A stretch of DNA of 20,109 nt from a virus. Made by a program: the position numbers and the translations under genes. Below the pieces are notes generated by a model. It searched no databases and was not told the DNA's origin. It saw only the letters and a program-made list of their open reading frames with translations. Positions 1,924-20,109 of this stretch are shown here, in pieces. How positions within the stretch are numbered: position 1 is the stretch's first letter; every line of letters starts with the position of its first letter. The stretch lies in IMG/VR virus record IMGVR_UViG_3300021085_000289, positions 1-20,109 of that record; one strand, given 5' to 3'.

Positions 1924-1924
1924 A

Positions 1925-3127
1925 ATGTCAGTATTAAAAAAAGATGGAATAGAAGTTTCAAAAAGAGTAGGACCCAACAGTGTTGTTGGTATTAATAATA
2001 TTCAAGGAACTTATATCGGCGAAGTTATTGACAATGTTGATAGCTTATACACAGGCAGAATAACAGTACGCATAAACGATTTTCAAAGCCAAGATGCAGA
2101 ACATATTTGTTTACTAGCATTGCCATTTGGCGGACATACTAAAATTAAAGACAGTGGTGATGACAAAACCAAAGAAGCACAAGCTCCAATAAGTTATGGA
2201 ATGTGGCCACAACCTCCGGAAATAGGAACCAATGTTGTTGTAGTTTTCACTGGTAGTTTAGAGCAAGGCATTGTTATGGGTTCGTTAGTCTCAAAAGACA
2301 ATAACTCTATGATGGGCGGTAGAGCAAGTGGACAAGCATATGTAAATGGTGAAACTGAACTAGCACCAACAGTTGAAAAAAATCCATACGACACAGATGA
2401 TGATGACACTAAACCACTTGACGAATACTTCCAATCAGTATTAAATCAGCAAGGACTAAGTCTTGACTATGTTAGAGGACACAGTAAGAGTGGAGCAAGA
2501 AGAGAATCACCTAGTAAGGTATTCGGAATTACAACACGCCAAGGACATGTATTATCAATGGACGATGGCGATGATGAAGAAGCTAGTAAAAATATTAGAT
2601 TGAGAACTAGAAGTGGCGCTCAAATTTTAATGGACGACAGTAATGGATTTATTTTTGTCACCACACAAACCGGTGACGCATGGATAGAAATGAACAATGT
2701 AGGACAAATTGATGTTTACAGTAAGGCAGGCATAAACATGCACACTGAAGGCGACTATAATGTACATGCTAAAGGTAGCATTAATATGCAAGCCGAGGTA
2801 GGAGTAAATATTAAAAGTACAGGTGGAGATGGAATTAAGTTAGAAACAAAAGTTGCAGGCATAGATGTTTATAGTGCATTAGATATAAAAATGCAATCGC
2901 CAAATAATTATCATCTAAAAGTAGACGGCAATGTAATAATGAAGGGCGGCAAGATAGACATGAATGGTCCAGAACCAGAAGAAGCTACAAAGATTACAAT
3001 ACAAAATCAGGAATCAAATGATAATGTAAAAACTAGTATAGCCAGTAGAGTACCAGAACACCATCCGTGGAAAGGTGTTGATGGACTTGACCCAACATAT
3101 AAAACGCAAAAAGGAAGAATATTATAA
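1925..3127 (+). CDS. 5: gp5-like baseplate hub spike (OB fold plus beta-helix)
   Basis: This is the central tail spike, related to T4 gp5 and VgrG, which pierces the outer membrane on contraction. Residues 28-122 look like the OB fold (GTYIGEVIDN, GRITVRINDF, YGMWPQPPEIG, then VVVVFTGSLEQGIVMGSLV). An acidic linker follows (DTDDDDTKP at 156-164). Residues 196-350 form a strand-repeat region of alternating short hydrophobic beta strands (IRLRTRSGAQILM, IDVYSKAGINMHTEG, INMQAEVGVNIKS), typical of the triple-stranded beta-helix. The C-terminus carries SRVPEHHPWKG, a short tail motif of a kind I associate with phage hub proteins. At 400 residues it is shorter than T4 gp5 (575), because the lysozyme domain that T4 has between OB fold and helix is missing. 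A lysozyme-fold gene lies immediately downstream instead. The start at 1925 has AGGAG at 1915-1919 with a 5-base spacer, and the gene follows the upstream stop by one base. Confidence 0.88.
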   Translation: MSVLKKDGIEVSKRVGPNSVVGINNIQGTYIGEVIDNVDSLYTGRITVRINDFQSQDAEHICLLALPFGGHTKIKDSGDDKTKEAQAPISYGMWPQPPEIGTNVVVVFTGSLEQGIVMGSLVSKDNNSMMGGRASGQAYVNGETELAPTVEKNPYDTDDDDTKPLDEYFQSVLNQQGLSLDYVRGHSKSGARRESPSKVFGITTRQGHVLSMDDGDDEEASKNIRLRTRSGAQILMDDSNGFIFVTTQTGDAWIEMNNVGQIDVYSKAGINMHTEGDYNVHAKGSINMQAEVGVNIKSTGGDGIKLETKVAGIDVYSALDIKMQSPNNYHLKVDGNVIMKGGKIDMNGPEPEEATKITIQNQESNDNVKTSIASRVPEHHPWKGVDGLDPTYKTQKGRIL

Positions 3128-3834
3128 TGCCATCGTTTAAGTTAAAAGCAGTTGTAGATAGCAGTAATTTAATTGACTATGGACTATTCACTGTAATAGA
3201 TAGTTCAGCAGTGAATACATTAATAGATCTCAAAACCTTAGAAGCAAGTGATAAATTAATTAATATTAAAATTAGAAACACTAAATGGCTAGGTTATGCA
3301 AAAGGTTCTGTTATTGGATACAAAACAACTACACAATTAACAGGTGACGGATTAACAGAAGCCGCTGCTTATACACTATGGATTGAAAAATTCAAAGACA
3401 AGGAAAGAGCATTTAAACGACAATTTCCATTGGAACAATTATCACAAGCACAATATGATGCTATGTTAGGACTTTATATAGATACTGGAACATTTCATAA
3501 AGTGGGATCAGATTCTAGACAATTTGATATATTGGAATATATACAAGATAGAAAATGGGAGTATGTGGCTACTGCACTAACATTAAATACATTAAACAGA
3601 AGAGACAGACAATCAGAAGCAAAGTTGCTTATGCTAGGTGACTATGGGATGTACAAAGATAGAAGTTATATCAAAGAAGAAGGTTTGCAAACTATGTTAA
3701 AAGAATATGTGTCGTCGCAATTAAACGATATACAAAAAAAGCAAGCAGAATATGTTTACTACGCAGAAACAAAAAGGTTTCTACCAAATATGATTGAGAG
3801 CAGGAAAAGAATTCTTGCAAATCTACTCAGTTAA
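3127..3834 (+). CDS. Free-standing GH24 lysozyme-fold protein, possibly catalytically inactive
   Basis: Residues 42-173 follow the T4 lysozyme layout. VIGYK (62-66) sits where family members have TIGYG. GLTEAAAYTLW (75-85) matches the T-x-x-E-A segment. LSQAQYDAMLGLYIDTGTF (105-123) matches the L-s-x-x-Q-x-D-A-L...N-x-G helix. LEYIQDRKWEYVATAL (136-151) parallels the T4 LQQKRWDEAAVNL stretch. RRDRQSEAKLLMLGDY (158-173) matches the family's RR-x-x-E-x-x-L-x-x-x-G-D-Y. By my alignment the catalytic positions T4 E11, D20 and T26 fall on D42, N51 and V62, so muramidase activity is doubtful, although the N-terminal alignment is loose. A C-terminal extension (174-235) is rich in charged residues. 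The ATG overlaps the gp5 stop (TAATG) and has AAGGAAG at 3111-3117, so it should be co-translated with the spike. It probably replaces the lysozyme domain that is built into T4 gp5. The alternative is a purely structural hub cap. Confidence 0.7.
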   Translation: MPSFKLKAVVDSSNLIDYGLFTVIDSSAVNTLIDLKTLEASDKLINIKIRNTKWLGYAKGSVIGYKTTTQLTGDGLTEAAAYTLWIEKFKDKERAFKRQFPLEQLSQAQYDAMLGLYIDTGTFHKVGSDSRQFDILEYIQDRKWEYVATALTLNTLNRRDRQSEAKLLMLGDYGMYKDRSYIKEEGLQTMLKEYVSSQLNDIQKKQAEYVYYAETKRFLPNMIESRKRILANLLS

Positions 3835-3841
3835 CTCACCA

Positions 3842-3849: not shown

Positions 3850-3869
3850 TTTAAATACTAATATAATAC

Positions 3870-3875: not shown

Positions 3876-3883
3876 TTTTTATC

Positions 3884-4438: not shown

Positions 4439-4449
4439 TTAATCATTTG

Positions 4450-4457
4450 CATAAATA
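4450..4457 (+). promoter_or_regulatory. T4-type late promoter (-10 element) before gp25
   Basis: CATAAATA lies only five bases before the gp25 ATG at 4463. With normal T4 late spacing, transcription would begin at or very near that ATG. It should drive gp25, gp6 and the giant gene, which follow with gaps of only one or two bases. Confidence 0.55.
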
Positions 4458-4462
4458 GTTGT

Positions 4463-4845
4463 ATGAGCAATATATTTGGATACACAACAGTCAATCAATC
4501 ATATACTAGTAAAACGCTTTCTGGCCTTGAATTGGCAAAGCAGGATCTATTAATCATTTTAAAATTCGCAAAGGCGAGAAATGGACTGACCCTGAATTTG
4601 GAAGTAACTTAGAACTATATGTGTTTGATCCATTAGATCAGCAAACACAAGATGCTATTGAAGAAGAAGTCAATGCAATAATAAATTACGATCCTAGATT
4701 CGAAGTAAACGATTCAGATATAAGAGTTGTACACGACACACATTCGGTAACAGTTAATGTAAAACTAACTTACTTACCAGAAACAACTGCAACAGAGTTG
4801 CAGATTAAATTCGACAAAGAATTTATAGAAAACGCAGAGTTTTAA
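4463..4845 (+). pseudogene. 25: gp25 baseplate wedge protein, interrupted by a single-base frameshift
   Basis: gp25 is the wedge protein that carries the sheath-initiation fold. The 5' part reads from ATG 4463 (MSNIFGYTTVNQSY ... LELAKQDLL) and would stop at TAG 4610-4612 after 49 codons. The rest is in the next frame (HFKIRKGEKWTDPEFGSNL, then YVFDPLDQQTQDAIEEE, INYDPRFEV) up to the TAA at 4843-4845. Inserting one A in the AA run at 4552-4553 restores AKQDLLNHFKIRKGEKW and gives an intact protein of 127 residues, against 132 in T4. The INYDPRF segment matches the family's conserved Y-x-P-R. No Shine-Dalgarno is evident before 4463. Because gp25 is essential in T4-like phages, a sequencing or assembly deletion is the likeliest cause. 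A real mutation or a recoding event is less likely. The GTG at 4621 is not a credible start, since conserved codons of the same frame precede it. Confidence 0.85.
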
Positions 4846-4847
4846 TT

Positions 4848-7800
4848 ATGGCACAGAAATCAAGACAAAATAAACTATTTGCGGCAGAGGACTTTACAGT
4901 AATCTATGAATCATACATCAATGCAAACTTTCAAGCATTTGACTTTGATACTATTAGAACTGCAATGGTTGACTATGTACGCAACAATTACCCAGAGAAC
5001 TACAATGACTGGGTTGAATCAGCTGAATTTGTATCACTACTAGATGTAGTTGCACAGTTTGGACACAACTTAGCATATCGAGTAGATATGAATGCAAGGA
5101 ATAACTTTTTAAGTACTTCCCAAAAACAAGAAAGTGTTTACAAGCTAGCAGAATTTTTAGGTTACCAAGCAAGACGCAATGTGCCAGCGTACGGTGAGAT
5201 GAAAGTAATAGGTGTTAAAACAAACGAACCAGTTATAGGTAGTGCAGGTACTAGCTTAGGTGGTACCGAAATAAAATATGAAGTGTCAAACAATGTTAAC
5301 AACTTAGATGACTTTATTACTATAGTAAACTCTGTATTGCAAAATAGCAATCAATATGGTAGTCCAAAAAAGTCAGTAGTAATTAATAATATAAAAACAG
5401 AATTCTATGATATGAACAATACTCCAAACCAAATTAAATTTGATGTAAATGGTACTGTATCAGGAGCAAGTTCGAACTTCAATATCATAAGCAGTGACTA
5501 CGACAATAACTCAAGAACATTCACAGAAAAATCTCCAGACCCAGTTGGAAGTTTTGGTATTTACTTTAAACAAGACGGTAAAGGGATAACAAGTATTAAC
5601 ACTGGATTCTTCTTTGGTGTTAAACAAGGAACATTACAGTTTCAAGACTTTGTTGTTGACAACCCAATTGACAGTGCATCATTTGATATAACAAATGCAA
5701 ATGTTAATAATACAGATGTATGGGTACAAAATATTAACGAAACAGGAAATATTGCCAAAGAATGGAATAAGGTTCTAGATGTTAACAGTAATGTAGTTTA
5801 TAATAATTTAGCAACAGGTGAACGAGATATATTCAGTATTAAAACTAGAAAAGATAATAAAATATCAATTATGTTTCCTGATAGTACATTTGGTAACATT
5901 CCAAAAGATACTATTAGAGTATGGCACAGAACAAGTGCTAACAGTACATATGTACTAAGACCAGATGATTTAACAACTAAAAAAGTTCAAGTAAATTATA
6001 CAGGGTATGATGACAATACATATACTGCTGTGTTTACATTGCAACTTAAACAATCAATTGCAAACGCAAGTGCAAATGAAACAATGGATCAGATTAGAGA
6101 AAACGCACCAAAGAATTACGCTAGTCAAGACAGAATGATTACTGCACAAGACTACAATACAATGTTAGGTAATACCAGTGGTAGCATTTCAAAAATTAAA
6201 AGTATTAATAGAACATTTAGTGGACACAGTAGATATTCTAAATTCGGAGATCCCACAGGAACATACAGTAACTTATATATGGCAAACAACGATGGTGTAT
6301 TATATGCTACAGATAATTTAGTTAATTCTGCATCAACTACAACAGATAGTGCAAACGTTATATTCCAAAAATATATCAAAGATATTCTTGACAATGATGA
6401 ATTTGTAAACTTGTATTATAAAAAATATAGAAATTCATTTCTTGGGTTAGCACAAGAAACTATTGATGGAACTAGGCATATGGATAACGCAGACTATGTT
6501 AGTGAATCATCAATCTTTACTTGGAATAGTCCAAGTTCTACAGCTAGTGGTATCTTAACAGGCTATCTAACTTTAAGTAATAATATTGCTCGTGTAGGTG
6601 ATACTGCAAGTGGATACATAAAACATTTTAAACCGGGAGCATTAATTAAATTTGCACCAGCAACAACAACTGCAGGTGGGTTTGTTACAGGACAAAATTA
6701 TAAAATAAGAGCAACAGGTACAACTGATTTTACATTACTTGGTTCAGCTAATAATAATATTGGTACAATATTTACGGCAACAAGTGCTGGACTAGGTACT
6801 GGAACAGCTACTGCACAAAATTTCAAATGGGCAAAAGTAGTAGATATTAAAACATACGGCTTAGGCATTGAAGGTATAGGAGCACAAGCAGGTGCGCCTA
6901 CTGGCATAGTTTCTGATGGAACTGGTGCAATTGTATTAGATGCAAAAATTCCAGCAAACAGTACAATAGAAATTATATATCCTGCTCTTACTAGAAAATT
7001 TAGTACTCGAGAAAGAGACTTAGTTATTAATTATTTAACTGCAAAAAGATCATTCTCATTAGTATACAATTACAAAACAACAAGTTGGAACATTGATACA
7101 ACTCCTGATAATTGGGATGGTACTCAAGCATTTCCAGATGACTTTGGAATAAATGATAACAGTTGGTCAGTGTTTATTGATTATACTGGTTCAACATTTG
7201 ATATCTATCTAAGAACACAACGAATTAATTTTACAAGTTCAGCAGTAAAACTAGGAAACATTCAAAACGAAGTTGAGATTGGATCTTATACTAAAAAAGC
7301 TAAACGAGATATAATTACTGTACTAGGCGGATTTAGAACTGAGATTTTACCAGTTGGTTCGTTTTATGTATATGGGTTTGAAAACTCTGATTCTAACAAC
7401 TATAGATTAGCATTGATTGACGGGAATGCTGACAGTAGACCAGACAACCCAGATGTATACAGTGATATAGTTTTGCCAAGAGAAGATACTTTACTAACTA
7501 GTCCAAATCCATTAGTACGAGGCGAAGAGAATTTGCATTTTGAATGGGAACACATTGCAACAGACAACCAAGTTGTTGACCCTAGCTTTACAAACATTAT
7601 TGATGTTTTTGCTTTGTCAAAAACTTACGACACAGAATATAAAAATTATTTAAAAAGAACTGTAGCAGTAGAACCAGTACCGCCAACTAGTTACGAACTA
7701 GGAAGTCAATTTATCGGTATCAACGATAAGAAAGCAGTAAGTGATACTATTGTTTATAAACCAGTTAAGTACAAGCCATTGTTTGGTTCTTTATCAGAGC

Positions 7801-8144
7801 CACATCTTAGAGCTAGATTTAAAATAATTAAACTATACGGATCAAATATTACTGACAGTGATTTAAAATCAAAAACAGTAACAGCTATAGGTGAATTTTT
7901 TGAAACAAGTAATTGGGACTTTGGCGAAACATTTTACTTTACAGAATTATCTGCATATGTACATAAGCAACTAGCAGGTGTGCTAAGTAGTTTTGTTATT
8001 GTACCACAAAATGCAGGTAGTGTATTTGGTGACATGTTTGAATATGAACCAAACAGTGATGAACTACTTATACCAGATGTAGATGTAGGTGACATTGATA
8101 TTATTACTAATATCACAGACGCTAATATTAGAGCAGGATCATAA
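4848..8144 (+). CDS. 6: gp6 baseplate wedge protein, enlarged
   Basis: This is the main wedge protein, which forms the ring around the hub and binds gp25 (T4 gp6 and P2 gpJ family). The N-terminal third carries the conserved features: FDFDTIRTAMVDYVRNNYPENYNDW near residues 33-57, then FVSLLDVVAQFGHNLAYRVDMNARNNFL and VYKLAEFLGYQARRNVPAYG. At about residues 412-445, NAPKNYASQDRMITAQDYNTML is the typical wedge/gpJ-like A-P-x-x-x-x-x-x-R-x-V-T-x-x-D-Y segment. The C-terminus (about 985-1098) contains the beta-rich end with SNWDFGETFYFTELSAYVHK. At 1098 residues it is far longer than T4 gp6 (660). Part of the excess is a 45-residue cassette at 612-656 that recurs in the next gene. The ATG follows the gp25 stop by two bases. 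No strong Shine-Dalgarno is visible, so translational coupling to gp25 is likely. Confidence 0.9.
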   Translation: MAQKSRQNKLFAAEDFTVIYESYINANFQAFDFDTIRTAMVDYVRNNYPENYNDWVESAEFVSLLDVVAQFGHNLAYRVDMNARNNFLSTSQKQESVYKLAEFLGYQARRNVPAYGEMKVIGVKTNEPVIGSAGTSLGGTEIKYEVSNNVNNLDDFITIVNSVLQNSNQYGSPKKSVVINNIKTEFYDMNNTPNQIKFDVNGTVSGASSNFNIISSDYDNNSRTFTEKSPDPVGSFGIYFKQDGKGITSINTGFFFGVKQGTLQFQDFVVDNPIDSASFDITNANVNNTDVWVQNINETGNIAKEWNKVLDVNSNVVYNNLATGERDIFSIKTRKDNKISIMFPDSTFGNIPKDTIRVWHRTSANSTYVLRPDDLTTKKVQVNYTGYDDNTYTAVFTLQLKQSIANASANETMDQIRENAPKNYASQDRMITAQDYNTMLGNTSGSISKIKSINRTFSGHSRYSKFGDPTGTYSNLYMANNDGVLYATDNLVNSASTTTDSANVIFQKYIKDILDNDEFVNLYYKKYRNSFLGLAQETIDGTRHMDNADYVSESSIFTWNSPSSTASGILTGYLTLSNNIARVGDTASGYIKHFKPGALIKFAPATTTAGGFVTGQNYKIRATGTTDFTLLGSANNNIGTIFTATSAGLGTGTATAQNFKWAKVVDIKTYGLGIEGIGAQAGAPTGIVSDGTGAIVLDAKIPANSTIEIIYPALTRKFSTRERDLVINYLTAKRSFSLVYNYKTTSWNIDTTPDNWDGTQAFPDDFGINDNSWSVFIDYTGSTFDIYLRTQRINFTSSAVKLGNIQNEVEIGSYTKKAKRDIITVLGGFRTEILPVGSFYVYGFENSDSNNYRLALIDGNADSRPDNPDVYSDIVLPREDTLLTSPNPLVRGEENLHFEWEHIATDNQVVDPSFTNIIDVFALSKTYDTEYKNYLKRTVAVEPVPPTSYELGSQFIGINDKKAVSDTIVYKPVKYKPLFGSLSEPHLRARFKIIKLYGSNITDSDLKSKTVTAIGEFFETSNWDFGETFYFTELSAYVHKQLAGVLSSFVIVPQNAGSVFGDMFEYEPNSDELLIPDVDVGDIDIITNITDANIRAGS
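6681..6815 (+). repeat. Shuffled cassette, copy 1 (inside gp6)
   Basis: This encodes gp6 residues 612-656, with pattern T-G-x-x-Y-x-I...T-T-D-F-T-x-x-G-(S/A)-x-x-N-x-I-G-T-(I/V)-F-T-A-T...G-T. It interrupts a segment that otherwise runs from GALIKFAP to FKWAKVVDI, as an inserted cassette would. The same pattern occurs three times in the next gene. Confidence 0.8.
8135..8138 (+). promoter_or_regulatory. Ribosome binding site for the giant structural gene
   Basis: AGGA lies seven bases before the ATG at 8146 and inside the last codons of gp6. It supports 8146 as the start in preference to the in-frame ATG at 8089, which lies 56 bases inside gp6 and would add 19 residues. Confidence 0.65.
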
Positions 8145-8145
8145 T

Positions 8146-11100
8146 ATGAAAAAGAAGGCAGGACAGAATTCAGTCAGCAATATAAAAACTAGTAAGTTCT
8201 TACCGGGTGTATTCCAAACAGAACTTAATAAAACTTGGTTAGATAGCACATTGGATCAAATGGTTTCAAAAGGACCATTGGAAAGCATCAGTGGATTTGT
8301 TGGAAGTAAAGATGGTAAAGTATCGTCAGCTGACGATACATACATAACAACAGATTTTAATCCAGCTATTGTTTCATATAACAAAGAAAAACAAATAACT
8401 AACTTGCTTGCATTTGACGACATTGCAAATTCAATTAATGAAAATTTTAAAACATACAATTACAACTCGGCATACAACTCTACTAAGTTTAGTTTCAGTC
8501 CTCCAATTGATATTGACAAATTCACTAATCATCAAAACTACAGTTGGGTAGAAGAATTACCAGTATACGAAAGTGTACTAGCATCTGGTAGCGTAAACCC
8601 AATCACAGAAATTCGAGACAACAACAAGTCTACTATTGTAGATGATAACAACACAGTTGTACTAGAAAACCAAATGCTTATTAAATTTACAGGTGCAGGT
8701 TGGGACACAGCAGTTACAGGTAAAACATATATTGTAGCAGGATCAAGTGGTAAGTTTAGTTTATATGAATACATAGATGAAAACAATGTAAGAGTATATA
8801 ACAATACAGTAAAGCATTCAGAGAACACAGATGGTACTTGGACTAATGACACATTATTTAATGTTGAACCAAATTGGGACAGTAAGTATTTTCCAGTAAT
8901 AAATGCAGGTAATTTTGTAATTGGGCAAACATATAGAATTAATAGCGTAGACACAACAGATTTTACAACAGTTGGCGCAGCTGACAACAACATTGGTACA
9001 GTGTTCACTGCAACAGGTGTAGGAACATTAACTGGCGGAGCTCAACTATTAGTAGAACCAGAAATTGTAATAGGATTATATAATGCAGATGGTGTTAAAG
9101 ATCCGGTGTTTGATGGATTTTATTTTGTTGATCTAAATAACAATCCTACTAAGCTCGTGTATGACACACTTGTAAAGTTTGCAGGAAATTGGGCAACTAC
9201 AACAGATACAACAAATACATATTCAATAGCATACAAAATTGATACTATTGGAATTAACATAGCACTAGCGACGGCAGATGAAATAGCAACTATTCCAGTT
9301 ATATCACCTTCAAGTAATTTAATGTATGACAAGGGATCTATTGTTGCTCCTATAAAAGATTATATTGTTGTAGCTAAAAATGATAACGCTCAAACAGCAT
9401 GGAGCAGAAATAATCACTGGGTTAATACTAGTACAATTAAAAAGTTAATTGAACTGATACCTGGCTATGACTTTTCTGACATAGAAAGCACATATAGAAA
9501 AGCATCAAGGCCTATTATTGAATACACTACAGAATTGCACATGTGGAATCAAACTGAAAGTACTTCTAATGTTTCATACAAGGGTGTTGTTGATGAAGCA
9601 GTTACTATTGGAAACGAACCAACTACTACAGGTAAAACTTATGTGTACACAGACGACACTGATACTTTGATTCATACAGTTGGAGGTTCAGATGTTACAT
9701 TATCAGAAGGCGATACTTTCTCTGTATTAACAAGCACAGACAGTCGATGGATAGAAGCTGATGGTTACTACACGGCTGGCAAAGTAACACTTGCACAACA
9801 AAAAACACAAACAAATCAAACACCGTTATACAGATTTTATAACGAAGCCGGCGATGCATTAGAAAGCGTTAACGGAAAAAGATTTATTGGCGATAAAATA
9901 TTTGGATATAAAATTGGCACAGGTGCAAACGACCCTGAACTAGGATTTCCATTAAGTTATAAAGACACACCCAAGGGTGCTGAATTTGAATTTGAAAACT
10001 TTATTATAACACAAAAATATCATACTACATATTCTAATGCAGAAAACTCTAGAGGAACATATTCAAAAGATCAAGTTGGCTATAGTTTATTTAAACAAAA
10101 TAATATATTAAAAAATATATACATACCTGCTGGAGAAATGGCAGGTGCTGAAGAACATGTACAATATAAAGTAGATGTACCAGATTCAACATTAACAATA
10201 CCATACGGTGAAAACAACTGGCGCCCTACACAAGAAATTTTAGTACACAACAATGAAAATAATTTATCAATCACAACATTAACAAGCACAGGTGAATCAA
10301 CTACAAAAGAATCTGCAGACGGTGAAGTAATGATACTAGGCGTTGGTCAAGAAATTACATTTAAAAGTTTAAGTAGTATGACATTATCAATTGTATCACA
10401 TGGTACAACTATTACAAATAATACACCAGGTTGGATAAGCACTTATACATCATCAGCTGATAGTATAACTTTAAAAACAAGCGGATCAAGTAATAATACT
10501 AGATTTAATTTAGTAGGAAATGGTAATACAGTAATTCAAACATTTGTTGTATCTGAACAATGGGATAATTTATTTTATAATATAACAATAGATGGTAAAA
10601 GAATTGACCAATCTAATTTAACAATAAATGAAACAACAATTGATATAGACACAAGTGTTCTTAATAAAAATAGTTTGGTTGATTTATATTTTAGAAATGT
10701 AGACTTAGCAAACAAAACAATTAACAATAGTTTACCAGATGTACACAAACATAATGCAAACAACAAAGCTATTGAAACTTTTACTTTAAGTGAAACATTA
10801 GATCATTGGGTAGACAAACTAAACACATTGCCTGGGTTTGATGGGAAAGCATTTGAAGAAAATAATTACCAAAGCATTCCACATACATCACACTACGGTG
10901 GCACAATCTTTATGCATAAAGATATTAGTATAATGCACGACATTAATTACTCATCAAACGAATTAAGTGTAACTGGTGCATTAGTAGAACAAGCAAACGA
11001 GTTTGTAGCATTTAGACAACGAGTATCTGCACAAGCAAGAAGAATTTGGTCTGCGGGTGCTAGTACTGTACAAGAATTAGCCGACAATGCTATATACGAA

Positions 11101-14100
11101 GTTACAAGAAATCAACAGGATCACGGACTATACAAAGAATCAAACATGCTTTATATTAAGGGTGAAGACTACCAAACCTTTACACTAGAAGGTGATGCTA
11201 TAACTGATTTCCCTAAAACATTTAATACACGATTCTTAATCAACGGTGATAAGAATATTAGAGATCATGTTTATGTTTACTTAACAGAAGACAATGGCAG
11301 TGAAACACAAATAAGAAGATTATTATTAAAAGACACAGACTACACATTCATAGGCAAGACAGTTACATTAACATTAAATTATGCAGCCTATGATAGTTTA
11401 AAAACCAAACCAACAGTAGAAGTATACTATACACACATGGACGAACAAAGTTTTGTTCCAACCAGTATGGTAAAACTTGGACTAGCATATGGTATAGAAC
11501 CACAAGTAGATAATAATATATTATATACACACGACGGTAAAGAGATAGATGTTACTGGACAAGATTTAATTAATATTAATGCTCCTACATTTAATCCAGT
11601 TAACGCAGTAATATTTGAAATGGAAAAACGCATATTTGCAGGACTAGTTAAGCAAGATGCAATGTACAAAGACGAAGTACAGGGCAGAACAAAATACAGT
11701 GCGTATAATAATTATTTGCCTTCTCAACATAGACATACTTGGTATTCATTAGCAGATTTAAATAATTATTTAGAAAAGCATTACTATAAATGGGCCAAGC
11801 AAAACAATATTACAAGTTTTAATACATCAAATTATTTTGAAACAAACAATTCATTTACTTGGAATTATAGTACTATAACAATCAACAATGGATATAAGAA
11901 CCAAGCACTTCCAGGTCATTGGAAAGGTGCATACATGATGTTGTTTGGAACATGCACTCCACATCTTACTCCGTGGCATATGCTAGGTTATTCATTTAAA
12001 CCAACATGGTGGGACGCCGAGTATAATTGGGATACAAAGAGAAACGAATTACTAGACGCACTAAAACAAGGTACATATACAAACCCTACATCTGCAAAAG
12101 AATCGCAAGATATTAATGTTGCTAGACATTATTGGGATTGGGATAATCACTGCCCAGTTAATAATGCTGGTGAACTACGAGATCCTAGGTTTGTATTAGA
12201 TCCAAATTCAACACTTGTAGGTTTTGACAAAGAGCAAGAGTTTGTATTTGGTGACTGGGGACCAGTTGAGTATGAATGGAGAGCAAGTGCATTAGGACAA
12301 GCAGTAACAGTTGACGCAGTATTAAAACTTAATCCTGCAAAGGCTTGGACAGACTTTTTCCAACCAGGACAGTCTCAACAATTCTTAACAAGTGATTTTT
12401 ATAAAACGCCAGGTAACATATATGGCAATTCAGTTGAATACATACAAGTAAACTCATCACCTAGTACATTAGAACGCAATGGTTCTTTTGTAATGCTAGA
12501 TGACGACTACAGTACAATTGGTGCTGCAACATACGATTTAACAGATATAGGTACTCCTGGAAAGATTGACGCGATAAGTGTAATTGATCGTGGATTAAAC
12601 TTTACAACACAACATATTGTTTCTTATGTTCCATACTATAGTGAACTGCCAACTGGCATTGACTTGTATACAAAATTAAAACCAGTTTCTTTTGTAGCGA
12701 ATGGAATTGCACAAGCACAGTTTAACTTTATGATTAGACACAGTTTTAATACTAAACTAGATAATCTACATGATAATTTAACTACAAAGTTACAAACAAA
12801 ACTAAATGGATTTACAAGCAAACACTTGTTAAACATAAATGCAGAAACAAGTAGTGCTGGAGACTTCCAACTTGGAGCAGATGACTTTAGTGTAGAAATG
12901 TATAAAGGTACTACTGCAGAATTAGTTACTGCTAGTACATTAACAATTAAAAAAACATTAACCGGTTACACTGTAGAGGGTGTTAGTAATAATGCAAGAG
13001 AGTTTAGTTTTTACGAACCAAACCTAGCAGTACCAACAGCTTATACAACAAAAACTATTTTAAATCAATCAGTAAGACATTATAATAATTTTGTTACAGT
13101 TCCTAGTATTATTGAATATGATGCTGAACTACAGAAGCTACAAGATGTTTATAACTTTATAAGAGGTTACTGGAAATGGATGGACACAGTTGGATACACA
13201 CCAGAGTATGACGGTGATAGTTCTGCTTCAGACTTTGTTGCTTGGGCATTTACTGCCGAAGTAGGACAAGGCTATATTCTACAACTAGGTAGAGTAATAA
13301 AATATAAACCAAACACTGGTCATGTATATGAATATAATAAATTAGAATATAACAGTAATGATGTGTTAGCATCAGATAGTACACGACTAGATAATACTAG
13401 ACTAAGTATCAAGCGTATAGACGGTACAACTACAATTGAAACAAAACAAAAAGAATTTATAGGAAGTGTAACCAGTGCGGTATTAAATTACCAACATGTT
13501 ATTTTGTTTGAAAATAAAACAAAACTAGCAGTAAATATATTTGACGATGTTAAAAACATATCTCAGAAAAGATTACATGTATCTGGACAAAGAACACAAA
13601 ACTGGACTGGTGAGAAGAAAGCTCCAGGATATTTAATTGCAGGAAACAGTATTGTACAAAACTTTGATAGTGCAGTCGAAAGCATTAACGATATTTATAG
13701 AACAGATGTAGATGAATTTAATAGAACATTTGCAAAAGGAAAAGAACTCACACTAGGAAAATCAGAAGGAATGTTATTAGATGGACTAGGTATTAACGAA
13801 AATGTTCTTACAAAATATTATCAAGGAATGATTAGAGAAAAAGGTACACAAGGTGCAATCGAACATGTAGGCAAGAGTACAATATTAAATAATGGAGAAA
13901 CTAAAGTTTCTGCTTACGAACAGTACATGTTTAGACAATCTACTTTGGGCAATGATGACTTGGAAGATCCGTTAGAGATTGAAATAGTATCAAGTGACAT
14001 TACATCATCACCACAAGCCATATCATTAGACACTGCAACTACAGAAGCCAATGTAATAAATGCAACATTATCTAGAATTGTTAACGACAAGCCTATTACA

Positions 14101-17100
14101 TTTGAGACACTAGGATATGATGATTCAGAGAGTGATATACTTACAGGTGGTGAGCCGTTGTTTATTGAAACAACATATAGATCATTAAGTTTGCCAGATA
14201 TGCCAAATGTGTTTGATACCGAAGCCGACTACAATAAAATTCCAACTTGGAATGCTTCAACAAGTTATCAACTAGGTGACAAAGTAAGATACCAAGGACA
14301 GCTATGGAAATGTAATGTTGACTTTACAGGACTAACAGAAACATCAGGTACTATTTTAGTAAACGGTACTGCAACATATCCGACATTTGCATCAGGTACC
14401 CAGGCAATTATTGCTGGAACAACAACTACTTTAGAAAAAACTAATCCTTATTGGACAGATGTTGTTGCTGAAGGTACAGTTGTTAGTCCTACATTTAAAG
14501 ACACTAAAACATTATTTGTAGATGGAGTACAAATTAACTTTGATAAGAAAGTAGGTGTACCTACTGTTATTGGTCCTGCTATTATGTTAGCAGATGCTAA
14601 CGGTAGATTATTAGACACCACAGATAGATCAATAACTATTGCAATAAGAAATACAAACACAGGTGACACTGATACTACTATTGATTTTGATTATCCAGAT
14701 GTAACTGAAACATTTAGTGGAGATGCAACTGAAACAGCATTCACTATTTCACAATCATTAGGCGGAGCTATTGGTGACAATTACGAAATACAAAGTGTAA
14801 CAGTAGATGGCGTTGCATCAACTGACCCTACAGACTATTCTGTAAGTGGACAAGTTATTACATTTACAAGTGCACCTGCAACAGGATCGAATAATATCGT
14901 TGTAGTTTTAAATCACATCACATTCCAATTAACACAAGCACAAATTAGAGATAAAATTAATAATGCAAATATTACTAACTTAACATGTACAATTGAAAAC
15001 ATAGGCAGTATAGACAGATTACAACTAAGCTACCAAGACACAGATGTAGAGAACAGCTTGGTACTAAAACCTGGAAGTGGTCCACATGGATCTAACAACT
15101 ACTATGCAAACAGTGAATTAGGATTTATTACTTCACCAACTGAGAATGTTGAGATAGTAGTAGCACAACAAAAACAAAATCAGTCTACAAGTGTAGACAT
15201 GACAGTAAATGAAATAGCAGGATTTATTAATGGCGAATCTAATGGAGCATTAGCAAATGTAACTGCTACAGTTGATAGTAATAAGCTAGTAATAACAAAA
15301 GCTAATAACACATCAGTTACTAATTTATATTTTTCTGGAAGTGCATGTGCATTATTGGGTATTACAACTGGCACAACAGACTATGTTAACATTGAGCAAG
15401 ATGTTCCAGTTCCTGCAGATCTTAACTTTGCTATAGACAAGATAAAAATTACATTAGCAAACGCAGGTGTTACAGATGTAATAGTTGCAAGAGTAGGTAA
15501 CGCACTTTCAATATCATCAACTGCTGCGTCATTGACACTTGGTGATACAACCTTTAACAGTAGTGCTGGTATAGTAACAGGCACTGTATTTTCAACTTCA
15601 ACAAATGTTGCAAATACATTTACTGACACTAAAACAATAGATGGAATTGAAGTAGATCACTTTACTGTAATAGATACTTCACAAGACCCAGCATTGTTTA
15701 ACATATTAGTATCCGATGACAGTGATTATAGTGTTGCAACAGTAGGCGGAATTAATACAAAATTCTATAGTTGGAATGTATTCCAAGCACAACAATCAGC
15801 AGTACCATTGTTTACAAAACCAGACCCAGCATTAAACACATTAGATAACTTTACTACATGTGGTATATGTGCAGGAACAACAAGTTCAGATGGAAATGAT
15901 GCAGAAGTAACAACTAATATTCCACATGGATTAACAGTGGGTAGCTATGTTATGTTATTAAATACAACTACCACACCAAACATAGACGGCATACATAAAA
16001 TAACAAAACTAGGTGAAAAGTCTAATGTATTTTACATAGACGAATACATTGAGTCGTGTGGTAACGCAGTATCTGTTTTACCATTAGTGACTACTAGATT
16101 TGCTAGCAAAGATCAAAGAGAAACTGCATTGCTAAGTAACAGTTGGAATTTACCAGTTAATAAAGTAGTATTTGCTAATACTAACCCAACAGGCACAGAA
16201 AACCTTAGAGGAACATATGTTAGAATGATACAAAGTTACGATATACATTCAGCAGGTACAACAATCCAAGCAGGTAATTATTATAGAATACAGTCAGTAG
16301 GAACTACTGACTTTACAACAATTGGCGCTGGTGCAAACACAGTAGGTACTATATTTGCTTCAACAGGCGCAACCACAGGTACAGGCACTGCTTTAAGAAT
16401 AGCTTCAACTGAGACCCGAAGAACTACTACCAGGCCAACTAATAAAGATATTGATAGCATGGTAATTTATAATCATGTTAACAACCAAGCCAAAGTACAA
16501 CTTGAAGCATGGGATCCAATGAGAAAGATATTACCAGGTATAGCTAGACAAAACATAGACTATATTAACCACTCAGACAACGCAATATATAACACATCAA
16601 CTGATGTTAACCAACACATTGACTTAGACACATCTTGGGGCAATGATCAGGTTGGAACAAGATGGTGGGATATTAGTAAGGTTAGATATGTTGACTACGA
16701 TCAAGGTGATGCTCAATACAAAACAAATCATTGGGGTAGACAAGAGAACGGCAGTGAAATTGTTGTGTGGGAATGGATTAAATCAACAGTAGCACCAGAC
16801 GATTACGATGAAGAAGTTGGAAAAAATACAGAGATGTTTGGTACTGTTGCAACAGGCGAAGCGTTCTCATACTATGACGAAGTAGCTAAAGAAACACAAT
16901 ATTATTATACAACAGAAGAAGAATGGAGTGAACAAACACTTTCATATAAAACTGTTTATTACTTCTGGGTAAAAAATAAAACAACACTAACAGACACTAG
17001 ATCACTTTCAGCATATGAGGCTTCTTTAATAATTGATAACCCTACTGCTAATGGTGTTAGTTGGTTTGCTGTTATAAGTGAAAAAGAATTCTTAATAGAT

Positions 17101-18933
17101 AATATTAATTATTATGTAGAAGATAAAAATACTGTAGTACAAATTAATAAAGCAGGTGATAAGTTTAAGTCACACAACGAATGGACAGTCATTACAAAAG
17201 ACAGTGATATAATTCCAGAATATTATATTAATAGACTGAAAAGAAACTTAGGTGGAAGAAATGATGCTAAAGCTAAAATTCCATTTATATCATTACACAG
17301 ATTTAATAGATACGGAGATGATTTAGAAATTGGTCAAGCATGGTTTAATAATTTACCAGACGCTAGAAGAAATGCAATTGTAACAATCAATAGTATACTT
17401 AAAAATATTAACTTAGTAGATGAGTATCAAGAAACATGGGATGTGACTTTATTAGCAAATAATTTCCCAACTAACTTATGGAGATGGACTGATTATGTAT
17501 TACCAACATACACTGGCACACTTAATCATACAACAACAATTACTAAGTATTCAGACTTAGATGCATTAGACAGAACTAAACATTTAGTTGCAAAACTAAC
17601 ATTGTTCCATACAGAGCTACAACTTAATAGAACTGAAACATATGCATATAATAAAGCAACCGATAAATGGGATCTTGTGTTTAAGAAAAACAGCACAGTT
17701 GAGTTTGACGAAGGACTAATGACTGCAACAGGTGGTTGGGACACTACAACATTTGACTCTAGGCCTTGGGACGAGGCAGACATTGCTGAGTATTGGGAAA
17801 CATTAGTTGAAGCATTAAACAAAGATATATTTGTGTACTATCACAGTGATAAAATGAATACACTATTCTTTGCAATGATACATTATATATTAAGTGTGTT
17901 TGAGCAAACAAACTGGATTAGAAAAACAACATATATTAAATTAGAATTTACTGATGCATTAGAAACAAAAATTAGAAAATATACTAAGAACAAAATTAAT
18001 AATGTAATAGGATATGTACAAGAAGTTAAACCGTTCCATACTAAGTCAAGTACAATAGTTACAAAACATACTGCACTTGAGAATGCAAACCTAACACTTA
18101 CCGAAGAGCCTGCTACAAATATAACTGTTAAGGTTAACGACTACGAAGCATTGTTTGGTGGAACATTATTTAATGATAATTCAGTAAACAACGTATCAAT
18201 AGCAGATCTTGTAACAGGAACAGAGTATGTTATAACATCACCTAGCAACTCTGACTTTACAACAGTTGGTGCAGCTGACAATGAAATAGGAACTATATTC
18301 ACTGCAACAGGCACTGGATTTTTAAATGGGCAAGCACAATTACACATAGGCGGTACAGGAACAAATCTTATAAATGGAATTGATTTTAATGATGCAGCTT
18401 CATTTAATTATATAACAGGTGGATTTAATAGAAACAGTCTTGTTGAAGTCAAACCATTAGAGCAGTTAGTAATTAATGTACAAACAAATGCATCAGGTAG
18501 CACACATGCATCAACATCAAGAACATTTGCACACATACATCAAGCAAACAACAATGTAATTGCATATGGATTAATAGAAACAAAAGAAGATGAATTAAAT
18601 GCATCATTTGGTACAGGCGACGATACTATTACTGTAGTAAGTACTGCTAACTTTGATGCAAGTGGTATTGTATACATAGATGGTGAATTAATTGAATATA
18701 CAAAACACAATAGTACAACACTTAACGTTATTAAACGTGGAGTAGCAGGAACATTCGGTGTTACTGCAAGTGTAGGGACATCAGTTATACAAGTAAATGA
18801 TACTCAACTTACATTTGCAAATGGCAGACCAAGCCATTATGGATACAACACAATAGGCGCTACGATTTTAAACAGCCCTGGGTCGACACAAGCACAAGAG
18901 TTGCAAACATTCGGCAAGGGTGTAGAATTATAA
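8146..18933 (+). CDS. Giant modular virion structural protein in the gp7 position
   Basis: This is a single frame of 3595 residues, begun one base after the gp6 stop. It occupies the place of T4 gp7 (1032 residues), but I see no direct gp7 match. The N-terminus (FLPGVFQTELNKTWLDSTLDQM, then ISGFVGSKDG) and a C-terminal KPFHTK (3295-3300) resemble very large structural proteins of marine T4-like phages. Residues 1258-1385 are rich in tryptophan and look conserved (TPWHMLGYSFKPTWWDAEY, FGDWGPVEYEWRASALGQA). The second half is modular. It has a CBM5/12-like stretch (W2035 to about 2107), a beta-rich module (2189-2255), three related segments (about 2263-2479), an HGL module (2586-2635) and an RG module (3482-3550). 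Three copies of a 45-residue cassette lie at 254-302, 2709-2752 and 3354-3401. No signal peptide or membrane segment is seen. It is probably a peripheral baseplate or fibre-network protein involved in host contact. The structural role is strong; the exact role is inferred. Confidence 0.82.
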   Translation: MKKKAGQNSVSNIKTSKFLPGVFQTELNKTWLDSTLDQMVSKGPLESISGFVGSKDGKVSSADDTYITTDFNPAIVSYNKEKQITNLLAFDDIANSINENFKTYNYNSAYNSTKFSFSPPIDIDKFTNHQNYSWVEELPVYESVLASGSVNPITEIRDNNKSTIVDDNNTVVLENQMLIKFTGAGWDTAVTGKTYIVAGSSGKFSLYEYIDENNVRVYNNTVKHSENTDGTWTNDTLFNVEPNWDSKYFPVINAGNFVIGQTYRINSVDTTDFTTVGAADNNIGTVFTATGVGTLTGGAQLLVEPEIVIGLYNADGVKDPVFDGFYFVDLNNNPTKLVYDTLVKFAGNWATTTDTTNTYSIAYKIDTIGINIALATADEIATIPVISPSSNLMYDKGSIVAPIKDYIVVAKNDNAQTAWSRNNHWVNTSTIKKLIELIPGYDFSDIESTYRKASRPIIEYTTELHMWNQTESTSNVSYKGVVDEAVTIGNEPTTTGKTYVYTDDTDTLIHTVGGSDVTLSEGDTFSVLTSTDSRWIEADGYYTAGKVTLAQQKTQTNQTPLYRFYNEAGDALESVNGKRFIGDKIFGYKIGTGANDPELGFPLSYKDTPKGAEFEFENFIITQKYHTTYSNAENSRGTYSKDQVGYSLFKQNNILKNIYIPAGEMAGAEEHVQYKVDVPDSTLTIPYGENNWRPTQEILVHNNENNLSITTLTSTGESTTKESADGEVMILGVGQEITFKSLSSMTLSIVSHGTTITNNTPGWISTYTSSADSITLKTSGSSNNTRFNLVGNGNTVIQTFVVSEQWDNLFYNITIDGKRIDQSNLTINETTIDIDTSVLNKNSLVDLYFRNVDLANKTINNSLPDVHKHNANNKAIETFTLSETLDHWVDKLNTLPGFDGKAFEENNYQSIPHTSHYGGTIFMHKDISIMHDINYSSNELSVTGALVEQANEFVAFRQRVSAQARRIWSAGASTVQELADNAIYEVTRNQQDHGLYKESNMLYIKGEDYQTFTLEGDAITDFPKTFNTRFLINGDKNIRDHVYVYLTEDNGSETQIRRLLLKDTDYTFIGKTVTLTLNYAAYDSLKTKPTVEVYYTHMDEQSFVPTSMVKLGLAYGIEPQVDNNILYTHDGKEIDVTGQDLININAPTFNPVNAVIFEMEKRIFAGLVKQDAMYKDEVQGRTKYSAYNNYLPSQHRHTWYSLADLNNYLEKHYYKWAKQNNITSFNTSNYFETNNSFTWNYSTITINNGYKNQALPGHWKGAYMMLFGTCTPHLTPWHMLGYSFKPTWWDAEYNWDTKRNELLDALKQGTYTNPTSAKESQDINVARHYWDWDNHCPVNNAGELRDPRFVLDPNSTLVGFDKEQEFVFGDWGPVEYEWRASALGQAVTVDAVLKLNPAKAWTDFFQPGQSQQFLTSDFYKTPGNIYGNSVEYIQVNSSPSTLERNGSFVMLDDDYSTIGAATYDLTDIGTPGKIDAISVIDRGLNFTTQHIVSYVPYYSELPTGIDLYTKLKPVSFVANGIAQAQFNFMIRHSFNTKLDNLHDNLTTKLQTKLNGFTSKHLLNINAETSSAGDFQLGADDFSVEMYKGTTAELVTASTLTIKKTLTGYTVEGVSNNAREFSFYEPNLAVPTAYTTKTILNQSVRHYNNFVTVPSIIEYDAELQKLQDVYNFIRGYWKWMDTVGYTPEYDGDSSASDFVAWAFTAEVGQGYILQLGRVIKYKPNTGHVYEYNKLEYNSNDVLASDSTRLDNTRLSIKRIDGTTTIETKQKEFIGSVTSAVLNYQHVILFENKTKLAVNIFDDVKNISQKRLHVSGQRTQNWTGEKKAPGYLIAGNSIVQNFDSAVESINDIYRTDVDEFNRTFAKGKELTLGKSEGMLLDGLGINENVLTKYYQGMIREKGTQGAIEHVGKSTILNNGETKVSAYEQYMFRQSTLGNDDLEDPLEIEIVSSDITSSPQAISLDTATTEANVINATLSRIVNDKPITFETLGYDDSESDILTGGEPLFIETTYRSLSLPDMPNVFDTEADYNKIPTWNASTSYQLGDKVRYQGQLWKCNVDFTGLTETSGTILVNGTATYPTFASGTQAIIAGTTTTLEKTNPYWTDVVAEGTVVSPTFKDTKTLFVDGVQINFDKKVGVPTVIGPAIMLADANGRLLDTTDRSITIAIRNTNTGDTDTTIDFDYPDVTETFSGDATETAFTISQSLGGAIGDNYEIQSVTVDGVASTDPTDYSVSGQVITFTSAPATGSNNIVVVLNHITFQLTQAQIRDKINNANITNLTCTIENIGSIDRLQLSYQDTDVENSLVLKPGSGPHGSNNYYANSELGFITSPTENVEIVVAQQKQNQSTSVDMTVNEIAGFINGESNGALANVTATVDSNKLVITKANNTSVTNLYFSGSACALLGITTGTTDYVNIEQDVPVPADLNFAIDKIKITLANAGVTDVIVARVGNALSISSTAASLTLGDTTFNSSAGIVTGTVFSTSTNVANTFTDTKTIDGIEVDHFTVIDTSQDPALFNILVSDDSDYSVATVGGINTKFYSWNVFQAQQSAVPLFTKPDPALNTLDNFTTCGICAGTTSSDGNDAEVTTNIPHGLTVGSYVMLLNTTTTPNIDGIHKITKLGEKSNVFYIDEYIESCGNAVSVLPLVTTRFASKDQRETALLSNSWNLPVNKVVFANTNPTGTENLRGTYVRMIQSYDIHSAGTTIQAGNYYRIQSVGTTDFTTIGAGANTVGTIFASTGATTGTGTALRIASTETRRTTTRPTNKDIDSMVIYNHVNNQAKVQLEAWDPMRKILPGIARQNIDYINHSDNAIYNTSTDVNQHIDLDTSWGNDQVGTRWWDISKVRYVDYDQGDAQYKTNHWGRQENGSEIVVWEWIKSTVAPDDYDEEVGKNTEMFGTVATGEAFSYYDEVAKETQYYYTTEEEWSEQTLSYKTVYYFWVKNKTTLTDTRSLSAYEASLIIDNPTANGVSWFAVISEKEFLIDNINYYVEDKNTVVQINKAGDKFKSHNEWTVITKDSDIIPEYYINRLKRNLGGRNDAKAKIPFISLHRFNRYGDDLEIGQAWFNNLPDARRNAIVTINSILKNINLVDEYQETWDVTLLANNFPTNLWRWTDYVLPTYTGTLNHTTTITKYSDLDALDRTKHLVAKLTLFHTELQLNRTETYAYNKATDKWDLVFKKNSTVEFDEGLMTATGGWDTTTFDSRPWDEADIAEYWETLVEALNKDIFVYYHSDKMNTLFFAMIHYILSVFEQTNWIRKTTYIKLEFTDALETKIRKYTKNKINNVIGYVQEVKPFHTKSSTIVTKHTALENANLTLTEEPATNITVKVNDYEALFGGTLFNDNSVNNVSIADLVTGTEYVITSPSNSDFTTVGAADNEIGTIFTATGTGFLNGQAQLHIGGTGTNLINGIDFNDAASFNYITGGFNRNSLVEVKPLEQLVINVQTNASGSTHASTSRTFAHIHQANNNVIAYGLIETKEDELNASFGTGDDTITVVSTANFDASGIVYIDGELIEYTKHNSTTLNVIKRGVAGTFGVTASVGTSVIQVNDTQLTFANGRPSHYGYNTIGATILNSPGSTQAQELQTFGKGVEL
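8905..9051 (+). repeat. Shuffled cassette, copy 2 (giant protein residues 254-302)
   Basis: The encoded core reads Y-R-I-N-S-V-D-T-T-D-F-T-T-V-G-A-A-D-N, followed by I-G-T-V-F-T-A-T-G. At the DNA level the stretch around 8961-8988 is almost identical to the matching part of copy 4, which suggests recent duplication or exchange. Confidence 0.85.
14248..14466 (+). other. CBM5/12-like carbohydrate-binding module within the giant protein
   Basis: Starting at W2035, the protein reads W-N-A-S-T-S-Y-x-x-G-D-K-V-x-Y-x-G-x-L-W-K-C, then PYWTDV about 45 residues later. This matches the usual W...Y..GD.V.Y.G..Y.....W layout of chitin or cellulose-binding modules (CBM5/12 type). A polar Thr/Gly-rich loop of about 30 residues is inserted before the last tryptophan. 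It suggests surface glycan binding. Confidence 0.6.
14710..14910 (+). other. Beta-rich tail module (F-x-GD ... TVDG ... ITF-TSAPA)
   Basis: Residues 2189-2255 read TFSGDATETAFTIS, then SVTVDGVAS, DYSVSGQVITFTSAPATGS and IVVVL. This order is common in phage tail fibre and baseplate proteins, where it forms a small beta-sandwich. It supports an exposed, adhesive role for this half of the protein. Confidence 0.6.
14932..15582 (+). repeat. Three divergent related segments in the giant protein
   Basis: Three segments (14932-15129, 15199-15372, 15418-15582) share the order I-x-x-x-I-N-x-A...V-x-A-x-V...L-x-I-S/T-x...S-x-L...L-G. The first two end in ELGFIT and LLGITTG. The third is more degenerate. 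They look like an old tandem duplication, but the likeness is weak and was judged by eye. Confidence 0.4.
15898..16050 (+). other. HGL-type beta module within the giant protein
   Basis: Residues about 2586-2635 read V-T-T-N-I-P-H-G-L-T-V-G-S-Y-V, then GIHKITKL and FYIDEYI. This is a frequent pattern in phage tail proteins. Cysteines flank it on both sides (CGIC just before, SCG just after), in a protein that otherwise has few. Confidence 0.5.
16270..16401 (+). repeat. Shuffled cassette, copy 3 (giant protein residues 2709-2752)
   Basis: The core reads Y-Y-R-I-Q-S-V-G-T-T-D-F-T-T-I-G-A-G-A-N, then V-G-T-I-F-A-S-T-G and a GTGTA end. It sits between RMIQSYDIHS and a TRRTTTRPTN segment, so it again interrupts an unrelated region. 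Confidence 0.82.
18205..18348 (+). repeat. Shuffled cassette, copy 4 (giant protein residues 3354-3401)
   Basis: The core reads Y-V-I-T-S-P-S-N-S-D-F-T-T-V-G-A-A-D-N, then I-G-T-I-F-T-A-T-G. The stretch at 18255-18281 is nearly base-for-base identical to copy 2, even though the two lie about 9.3 kb apart. Confidence 0.85.
18589..18795 (+). other. C-terminal RG-type beta module of the giant protein
   Basis: Residues 3482-3550 follow the order D-D-T-I-T-V...T-A-N-F-D-x-S-G-x-V-Y-I-D-G-E-L-I-E-Y...L-x-V-I-K-R-G-x-x-G-T. This is a widespread phage tail module (I-D-x-E-x-I-x-Y, then R-G-x-x-G-T). It supports a tail or fibre location for the C-terminus. Confidence 0.6.
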
Positions 18934-18977: not shown

Positions 18978-19577
18978 ATGAATATATTAAATGAAAAATC
19001 AACAGTCAATGTAGAAGGACACGTTATAATCAGAGATACTGATAGCGGTGAAGTTTTACTTGACAAACACAATGCAATTAACTTTCATAACTTTGCATTT
19101 GCGGTAGCAAAAGCTATGGCTAATCAAACACTAGCTAGTGATGGATACTTTATAAAAAAGTTAGCACTAGGTTATGGAGGAACGACAATTGATGTTAATG
19201 GAAACATTACATATAAAGATGCAAAGGTTGACGGAACAACCAACACAGGATTATATAGTCCAAGTAAAGATAACTCGGTAACTCCAGCAGTGGACTTGCT
19301 AGTAGCAGTTTCAGAATTTATTGTGAGCAATGCTACTAACCAACCATACTCGGATTTACAATGTAAGACAACACTTGACTATTCATTTCCAACTGATGCA
19401 CTAACTACAGATAACGCAGGTGACTTTGACACAGAAGGTAATTTTGTGTTTGATGAAATTGCACTAGTTACAGAAGCTGGCACTTACTTAACACACTTAA
19501 TATTCCATCCTATTCAAAAAAGTAAGAACAGAAAACTAGAGATTCTTTATACGATAAGAATCAGAGCAGGAGTATAA
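18978..19577 (+). CDS. Small virion structural protein (marine T4-like family)
   Basis: This 199-residue protein has the N-terminal pattern V-x-G-H-V-x-I-x-D-x-x-S-G-E-V-L-L-D-K-H-N-A-I, followed by a helix (FAFAVAKAMAN) and a small glycine patch (LGYGGT, about residues 64-69). The C-terminal half ends FDEIALVTEAGTYLTHLIFHPI and then a basic strand segment (KKSKNRKLEILYTIRIR-like). I associate this arrangement with structural proteins encoded after the giant gene in marine T4-like phages, but I cannot name a T4 counterpart. T4 gp8 would be the positional equivalent, but no sequence match is evident. No signal peptide or membrane segment is seen. It has its own consensus late promoter and a good ribosome binding site, so it can be expressed apart from the long upstream operon, probably together with the fibre-like gene four bases downstream. 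The family is recognised by pattern only. Confidence 0.65.
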   Translation: MNILNEKSTVNVEGHVIIRDTDSGEVLLDKHNAINFHNFAFAVAKAMANQTLASDGYFIKKLALGYGGTTIDVNGNITYKDAKVDGTTNTGLYSPSKDNSVTPAVDLLVAVSEFIVSNATNQPYSDLQCKTTLDYSFPTDALTTDNAGDFDTEGNFVFDEIALVTEAGTYLTHLIFHPIQKSKNRKLEILYTIRIRAGV

Positions 19578-19581: not shown

Positions 19582-20109
19582 ATGGCATACGAAGTTAATA
19601 GATTTTTAGACACAACGTTATCCGTATCTGACACTGGTAAAATTACTATAGTCGACGATGGATTAAATAACGAAACAAGTTTAGCACTAGTAGGAAAATA
19701 TTATGTGGGATACGGCGAGACAATTGCACAAAACTCACTTAGCTTACTAGAAAACTTTGCAAGCGAAACTGCTCCTAGTAATCCAATTGAAGGACAACTT
19801 TGGTGGCAACCATCAGCACAAATATTAAATGTTAGACACGCTCAAGACTGGACAGGTATCGATGCTAATAGTGTGGTTACACTTAGAGATGCTACACAAG
19901 CCGCCGGCGCAGGAACACATAAAGTAGTTGTTGAAAGAGCAGACGGATACCCAGTATCAATTGCAAGTGATCATCAGTTTGTAATAAACCCAGCCGAACC
20001 AATACATGGTAAATTTTTGGATGGTGGAACTGGAGCAGTTGCAACAGTTAAAGCAGGTATAAATTTAAATACTGAAACCTCAAAAGCAATGAAGTTTCAC
20101 GGTACGGCA
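19582..20109 (+). CDS. Fibre-like virion structural protein (3' partial)
   Basis: The frame is open for 176 codons and runs off the window with no stop. The ATG at 19582 has AGGAG at 19568-19572 with a nine-base spacer, lying in the end of the preceding gene. The protein starts MAYEVNRFLDTTLSVSDTG. Residues 38-73 read LVGKYYVGYGE, NSLSLLENFA and PIEGQLWWQP. This is the L-x-G-x-x-x-x-x-Y-G-E...N-x-L-x-L-L-E-N-F-A...P-x-x-G-Q-L-W pattern seen in tail-fibre-like proteins of marine T4-like phages. Usually a tryptophan segment follows, and it does here (QDWTGID, about residues 84-90). The part after residue 95 (VVTLRDATQAAGAGTHK) may begin a further beta domain. Its place behind baseplate genes, with a late promoter upstream, fits a host-contact structure. 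Which fibre it belongs to cannot be told from the part seen. Confidence 0.7.
   Translation, partial: MAYEVNRFLDTTLSVSDTGKITIVDDGLNNETSLALVGKYYVGYGETIAQNSLSLLENFASETAPSNPIEGQLWWQPSAQILNVRHAQDWTGIDANSVVTLRDATQAAGAGTHKVVVERADGYPVSIASDHQFVINPAEPIHGKFLDGGTGAVATVKAGINLNTETSKAMKFHGTA

Follow-up and report, generated by a model that had tools for sequence, protein, structure and literature searches.

Background

In bacteriophage T4, gp7 (1032 aa) is a monomer, present in six copies, which contacts gp6, gp8, gp9 and gp10 (PMC3004832). In phage XM1, a 242-aa protein, gp17, is the partner of the gp6 dimer and serves as the dock for the tail spikes, and a signal passing from the spikes to a gp25-type sheath initiator has been proposed (PMC10457771). 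Docking sites have also been reported in the T4gp10-like domains of the CBA120 and G7C fibres (PMC9700779).

Proteins encoded in the gp7 slot differ greatly in size. At the low end, KVP40 has 1165 aa and Menderavirus Yut3 503 aa. Cyanophages carry giants in this slot: S-SRM01 gp194 (3895 aa), S-B05 (4024 aa), Bellamy 111 (4067 aa) and, as calculated from record coordinates, ACG-2014a (6064 aa), S-SSM5_094 (6171 aa) and S-P4_047 (7041 aa). Two of the cyanophage giants are annotated as baseplate wedge initiator, and the paper on DLP6 compares its own gp7 with cyanophage gp7 (PMC5349666).

Another family of giants, phrog_10938, occurs in RaK2-like and related jumbo phages. Its members include RaK2 ORF070w (3326 aa), CBB_236 (3340 aa), PA5oct gp355 (3857 aa), the SCTP-2 protein (3807 aa) and Atu_ph07 gp180 (4449 aa), to which AP-J-162 gp58 (4455 aa) can be added through its published similarity to Atu_ph07 (PMC11242549). 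PHROGs labels the family "virion structural protein", category head and packaging, and in the main texts of the literature we found no study placing it in a baseplate map. Marine and jumbo T4-like phages commonly encode a gp7-slot protein of three to seven thousand residues, for which the only names are of the kind "virion structural protein".

Here we describe a giant of the phrog_10938 family encoded in a 20,109-base virus record, called the window throughout. We propose, with fair though not high confidence, that it is a baseplate-wedge scaffold which does the job of gp7 and carries docking or binding modules.

Results

The window is a baseplate operon read from left to right (Table 1). It codes, in this order, for a 640-aa structural protein (phrog_11190), a gp5-like hub, a lysozyme-like protein, an HNH endonuclease, gp25, gp6, the giant, a 199-aa protein and a further structural protein. 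The gp25 gene is in a single frame in the independent contig L027, identical to window 4322-9019 at 97.6%, and in relatives such as L002; the frame change in the window record is probably a sequencing or assembly error. The HNH endonuclease is missing from the close relative L002, and in 121Q a gene noted as intron-associated lies between gp25 and gp6. Downstream of its baseplate genes, L002 carries two radical-SAM genes (27290-29991), one with SPASM; radical-SAM genes are also present in the corresponding area of Atu_ph07.

Table 1. Genes of the window and segments of the giant protein, with window coordinates
Feature	Residues of giant	Position	Strand	Basis or remark
gp5/spike-like hub protein, OB domain, phrog_13211		1925..3127	+	profile matches
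Tail lysozyme-like protein		3127..3834	+	Phage_lysozyme, score just under cut-off
Free-standing HNH endonuclease		3794-4438		between lysozyme and gp25
gp25-like sheath initiator gene		4463..4845	+	split by one-base frame change
gp6-like baseplate wedge protein, 1098 aa		4848..8144	+	phrog_10646; T4 gp6 family phrog_219, E 2.5e-20
Giant virion structural protein, 3595 aa		8146..18933	+	ORF; phrog_10938, E 2.1e-166; relatives
TDFTT(V/I)GA insertion module 1	250-305	8893..9060	+	positions occupied in 8% of relatives
Trp-rich conserved core (LPGHWKGAYMMLFGTCTPHLTPWHMLGYSFKPTWWD...)	1101-1420	11446..12405	+	conservation
Module that recurs in cyanophage giants of the gp7 slot	1425-1515	12418..12690	+	HH E 3.4e-7
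Conserved domain, KGT...EeWmfR motif	1780-1960	13483..14025	+	weakly gp7-like
CBM_5_12 carbohydrate-binding module	2034-2059	14245..14322	+	Pfam
Small beta domain	2184-2258	14695..14919	+	like TSP4 (CBA120), tail/neck adaptors
Three tandem copies of ~80-aa module	2252-2482	14899..15591	+	HH self E 6.6e-14
Compact beta domain	2550-2648	15793..16089	+	VIA Z 8.2-8.8 over 75-77 residues
TDFTT module 2	2705-2755	16258..16410	+	14% of relatives
Conserved family region	2760-3300	16423..18045	+	pLDDT mostly 85-95 to ~3250
TDFTT module 3	3348-3403	18187..18354	+	26% alignment occupancy
199-aa protein, phrog_11259		18978..19577	+	found in RaK2-like phages too
Start of further structural protein, phrog_14394/15511		19582..20109	+	truncated by contig end

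As the sequence-only reading had noticed, one frame fills more than half of the window, and its product is over three times longer than T4 gp7 (3595 versus 1032 aa). The plus-strand ORF check of the window gave 3595 codons without a stop at 8146-18933; with the composition of the window (34% GC), a stop-free frame of this length is expected by chance at about 10^-130. Its ATG stands one base past the gp6 stop (8142-8144), and a GTG at 8089 is a possible upstream start that would extend the ORF inside gp6. The GC content per codon position (0.42/0.39/0.19) has the pattern typical of coding DNA. Substitutions relative to L001 fall mainly in third positions (0.30/0.23/0.44), and on this pattern the gene is judged to be under purifying selection. 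A Rfam CRISPR-repeat match inside the gene (10721-10778) is sub-threshold and was taken as chance.

Hundreds of relatives of the giant turned up in IMG/VR, from which 77 loci were kept. Complete copies number 59 (54 from these loci and five from isolate phages) and measure 2980-4449 aa, with a median of 3571. Joining of genes in assembly had been named, on the sequence alone, as something that would refute the observation, and a chimeric contig with fused neighbouring genes is a rival reading for which the probable frame error in gp25 speaks. Nevertheless, the complete relatives, isolate genomes among them, repeat the same length and gene order, and L027 reads across the gp6/giant junction, so joined genes are excluded and an assembly artefact deserves practically no credence. 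Two metagenome contigs have a giant interrupted close to the 5' end, probably by frame errors: it is split into 578 and 3050 aa in L049 (7640-18429), and its start is missing in L009 (3617-4185).

Among the loci with room upstream, 70 of 73 have gp6 directly before the giant, and gp25 and gp53 genes share operons with it in relatives. The gp7 position assigned by the sequence-only reading is thus borne out by the order gp25-gp6-giant: within the operon, gp6 precedes the giant just as it precedes T4 gp7 (phrog_964). This adjacency is not absolute, because SCTP-2 keeps gp6 (231230-234889) and the giant (127770-139193) about 90 kb apart. Gene 141 beside the SCTP-2 giant encodes about 3096 aa, so that two giant structural genes adjoin there.

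The window giant matches the phrog_10938 profile (3,324 positions) with 556 bits in four stretches, the best of them at 1520-3094, so that most of the protein is covered, and its gene comes right after a phrog_10646-type gp6. It is related over the full length to the isolate members, which likewise have no assigned function, at 22-28% identity (tblastn); it exceeds the copies of RaK2 and CBB by about 270 aa, and its three TDFTT modules are extra in comparison with the isolate copies. In several members the protein has been found in virions by mass spectrometry, in keeping with its earlier description as structural. CBB_236 gave 21 peptides (7.7% coverage; PMC5259590), and PA5oct gp355 carries an ESI-MS/MS note. 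In phAPEC6, gp245 (381.9 kDa, 17 unique peptides, 7.6% coverage), which we assign to the family from position and size rather than sequence, is listed next after the baseplate wedge protein gp244 (PMC7247149). Such sparse coverage of the relatives cannot tell a cut chain from an intact one. The family occurs also in contigs of four GTDB bacterial bins (L097-L100; two contigs of Gammaproteobacteria MED685, one of Puniceicoccaceae and one of Endomicrobia), which are probably binned phage contigs.

The giant is therefore a real and conserved member of an already catalogued family, to which the window adds one sequence with unusual small insertions. The hint that its size is exceptional did not hold up: proteins of 3-7 thousand residues fill the slot in cyanophages and RaK2-like phages, the size is shared by the group, and the window giant is mid-range for the slot.

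Likeness to T4 gp7 itself found no support, the profile comparison being at chance level. The giant has no PHROG match to the T4 gp7 profile phrog_964, and comparison of the whole family profile with T4 gp7 gave HH E 0.59. The best local match, at residues 1851-1950, reached E 0.003 against 0.008 in the reversed-profile control. On sequence, the giant consequently does not qualify as gp7. Among the fold matches listed for residues 1101-2110 and 2111-3300 (the N-terminal 1100 and C-terminal 295 residues lie outside these segments), gp7 chains are absent. A KGT-motif match to gp7 with E 4.6e-4 came from a hand-picked segment and was dropped after the reversed-profile control; an E of 1e-24 in the sliding scan against gp7 was an artefact of 6-12 columns, obtained in both directions. 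T4 gp7, which contacts gp8, gp9 and gp10 (fibre connector), and XM1 gp17 are the third subunit of the (gp6)2-gp7 wedge. They share the gene position with the giant, which is 3.5 to 15 times longer, and no similarity is detectable to T4 gp7, the one of the two with which its sequence was compared. The gp7 reading is partly supported: gene position and the presence of relatives in virions agree with it, but as sequence homology was looked for and not found, we do not file the giant as gp7.

Cyanophage giants (phrog_2885/701) resemble the window giant in the gp25-gp6-giant slot, in size range and in the module at residues 1425-1515. This repeated module is the single significant match between them (HH E 3.4e-7); neither the PHROG search nor HH profile comparison found a full-length relation. 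A motif of T4 gp7, FYSTKGIEASYKFLFKVLYNEEVEIE (within T4 residues 724-758; HH E 5.3e-7), is still present in the cyanophage giants, as it is in the 503-aa slot protein of Menderavirus Yut3 (HH E 1.2e-5), and at least S-SRM01 retains a gp8 gene, whereas the window family shows neither this KGT motif nor gp8.

In the giant, an N-terminal part of variable length (window residues 1-1100 correspond to 374-1189 aa in relatives) is followed by a body of conserved length (1101-2110, corresponding to 901-1101 aa in 39 relatives). AlphaFold models were made for 1101-2110 (pLDDT 75) and 2111-3300 (pLDDT 80). Foldseek with the first model gave no match below 1e-3 in the PDB and, in a viral library, only the protein's own family (an Atu_ph07 structural protein and uncultured phages). 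VIA rows pairing residues 1590-1781 with T4 and phi812 wedge chains (Z ~5) were left unused; they stood amid rows of the immunoglobulin fold with Z 4. A sequence search of solved structures with the whole protein and three segment profiles yielded only weak chitinase/chitin-deacetylase matches at the CBM; PARP1 and similar rows were taken as chance.

The second half had been described as a chain of small adhesive modules. This applies only to residues ~2030-2650 and to the three TDFTT insertions; it does not apply to 2760-3300, which is among the best conserved regions of the giant. Modules of the phage adhesion or docking type are indeed present. CBM_5_12 scores 29.1 bits in Pfam (cut-off 26.2) over 26 of 44 model positions, and carbohydrate binding is a prediction from this match. 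The small beta domain at 2184-2258 gives VIA Z 8.2-8.4 over 64-66 residues with rmsd 1.8-2.0 (CBA120 TSP4, Z 8.2); the matched stretch of TSP4 is presumably its T4gp10-like docking domain. The domain at 2550-2648 resembles a phi92 endosialidase domain and an E1 enzyme domain. Since these Z values are near those of unrelated small beta domains, they indicate shape and not function. TDFTT modules occur in only 7 of 80 relatives, partly at different sites, and the three copies in the window share 49-56% DNA identity with one another; judged from the alignment, they are insertions absent from most relatives.

Discussion

In the role that we propose, that of baseplate-wedge scaffold of a jumbo or marine T4-like phage, the giant, made next to gp25 and gp6, would most likely pack on the gp6 dimer where T4 has gp7; analogy with T4 predicts six copies in each virion. 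Its long conserved body may replace peripheral wedge proteins, taking over the functions of gp7 and probably those of gp8 and gp9/10, by means of sequence either non-homologous or diverged beyond recognition. The inserted modules (carbohydrate-binding, tailspike-type adaptor, tandem beta repeats, TDFTT) could dock fibres or touch glycans, and a pull on docked fibres might be passed through the giant to gp6, gp25 and the sheath, as T4 and XM1 suggest by analogy (PMC3004832, PMC10457771). In five complete genomes with the phrog_10938 family, T4-type gp7 (phrog_964) and gp8 (PF09215) went undetected and the gp9/gp10 N-domain (PF07880) gave nothing above cut-off, with one sub-threshold match in SCTP-2; as controls, T4 matched the gp7, gp8 and gp9/10 profiles and gp8 was recovered in S-SRM01. 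This result is compatible with replacement, although divergent genes would look identical in such searches. Against the wedge role stand the missing sequence homology to T4 gp7, the lack of gp7 chains among the fold matches listed for residues 1101-2110 and 2111-3300, and the separation of giant and gp6 in SCTP-2.

It is conceivable, though we lean against it, that the giant is a true gp7 homologue diverged to an extreme degree, with the core-bundle helices and KGT domain of T4 gp7 separated by large insertions. The operon slot is the same, the similarly sized cyanophage giants and the Menderavirus slot protein share the gp7 724-758 motif, and residues 1780-1960 hold a YYQGMIREKGT...EQYMFR region, conserved in the window family, which matches that motif weakly. 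This match, however, is no better than its reversed-profile control, and the one significant link to the cyanophage giants is the module at 1425-1515. Hidden gp7 homology would be compatible with a wedge-scaffold role. An improbable alternative is a host-adhesion protein, a long fibre or whisker that just happens to be encoded beside gp6, the body serving as shaft anchor and the modules as receptor binders. The CBM_5_12 module, tailspike-like and flagellin/FliD-like domain matches (VIA), the variable TDFTT insertions and the whiskers or hairy fibres of RaK2-like phages (PMC5259590) would suit such a protein, but the body is long and conserved in length, identity peaks in core regions, unlike in fibres, and phages of the family have separately annotated tail-fibre genes, for example CBB gp226.

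If the baseplate-wedge scaffold is taken one step further, a single giant chain in RaK2-like and related marine phages may have assumed the jobs of gp7, gp8 and gp9/gp10, that is, wedge scaffold, fibre dock and trigger, convergently and without homology to the giant gp7 of cyanophages. We offer this extension as a speculation that may well prove wrong; if true, proteins of more than 3000 aa have come to occupy the gp7 slot on at least two occasions. Assigning a baseplate-wedge role to such giants would reveal the task of several of the largest genes in marine and jumbo T4-like phages and would separate scaffold parts from exchangeable docking or binding modules. A TDFTT-type insertion module is also carried by gp6 of the window (~6666-6812, E 3e-15), and this module therefore spreads among baseplate proteins.
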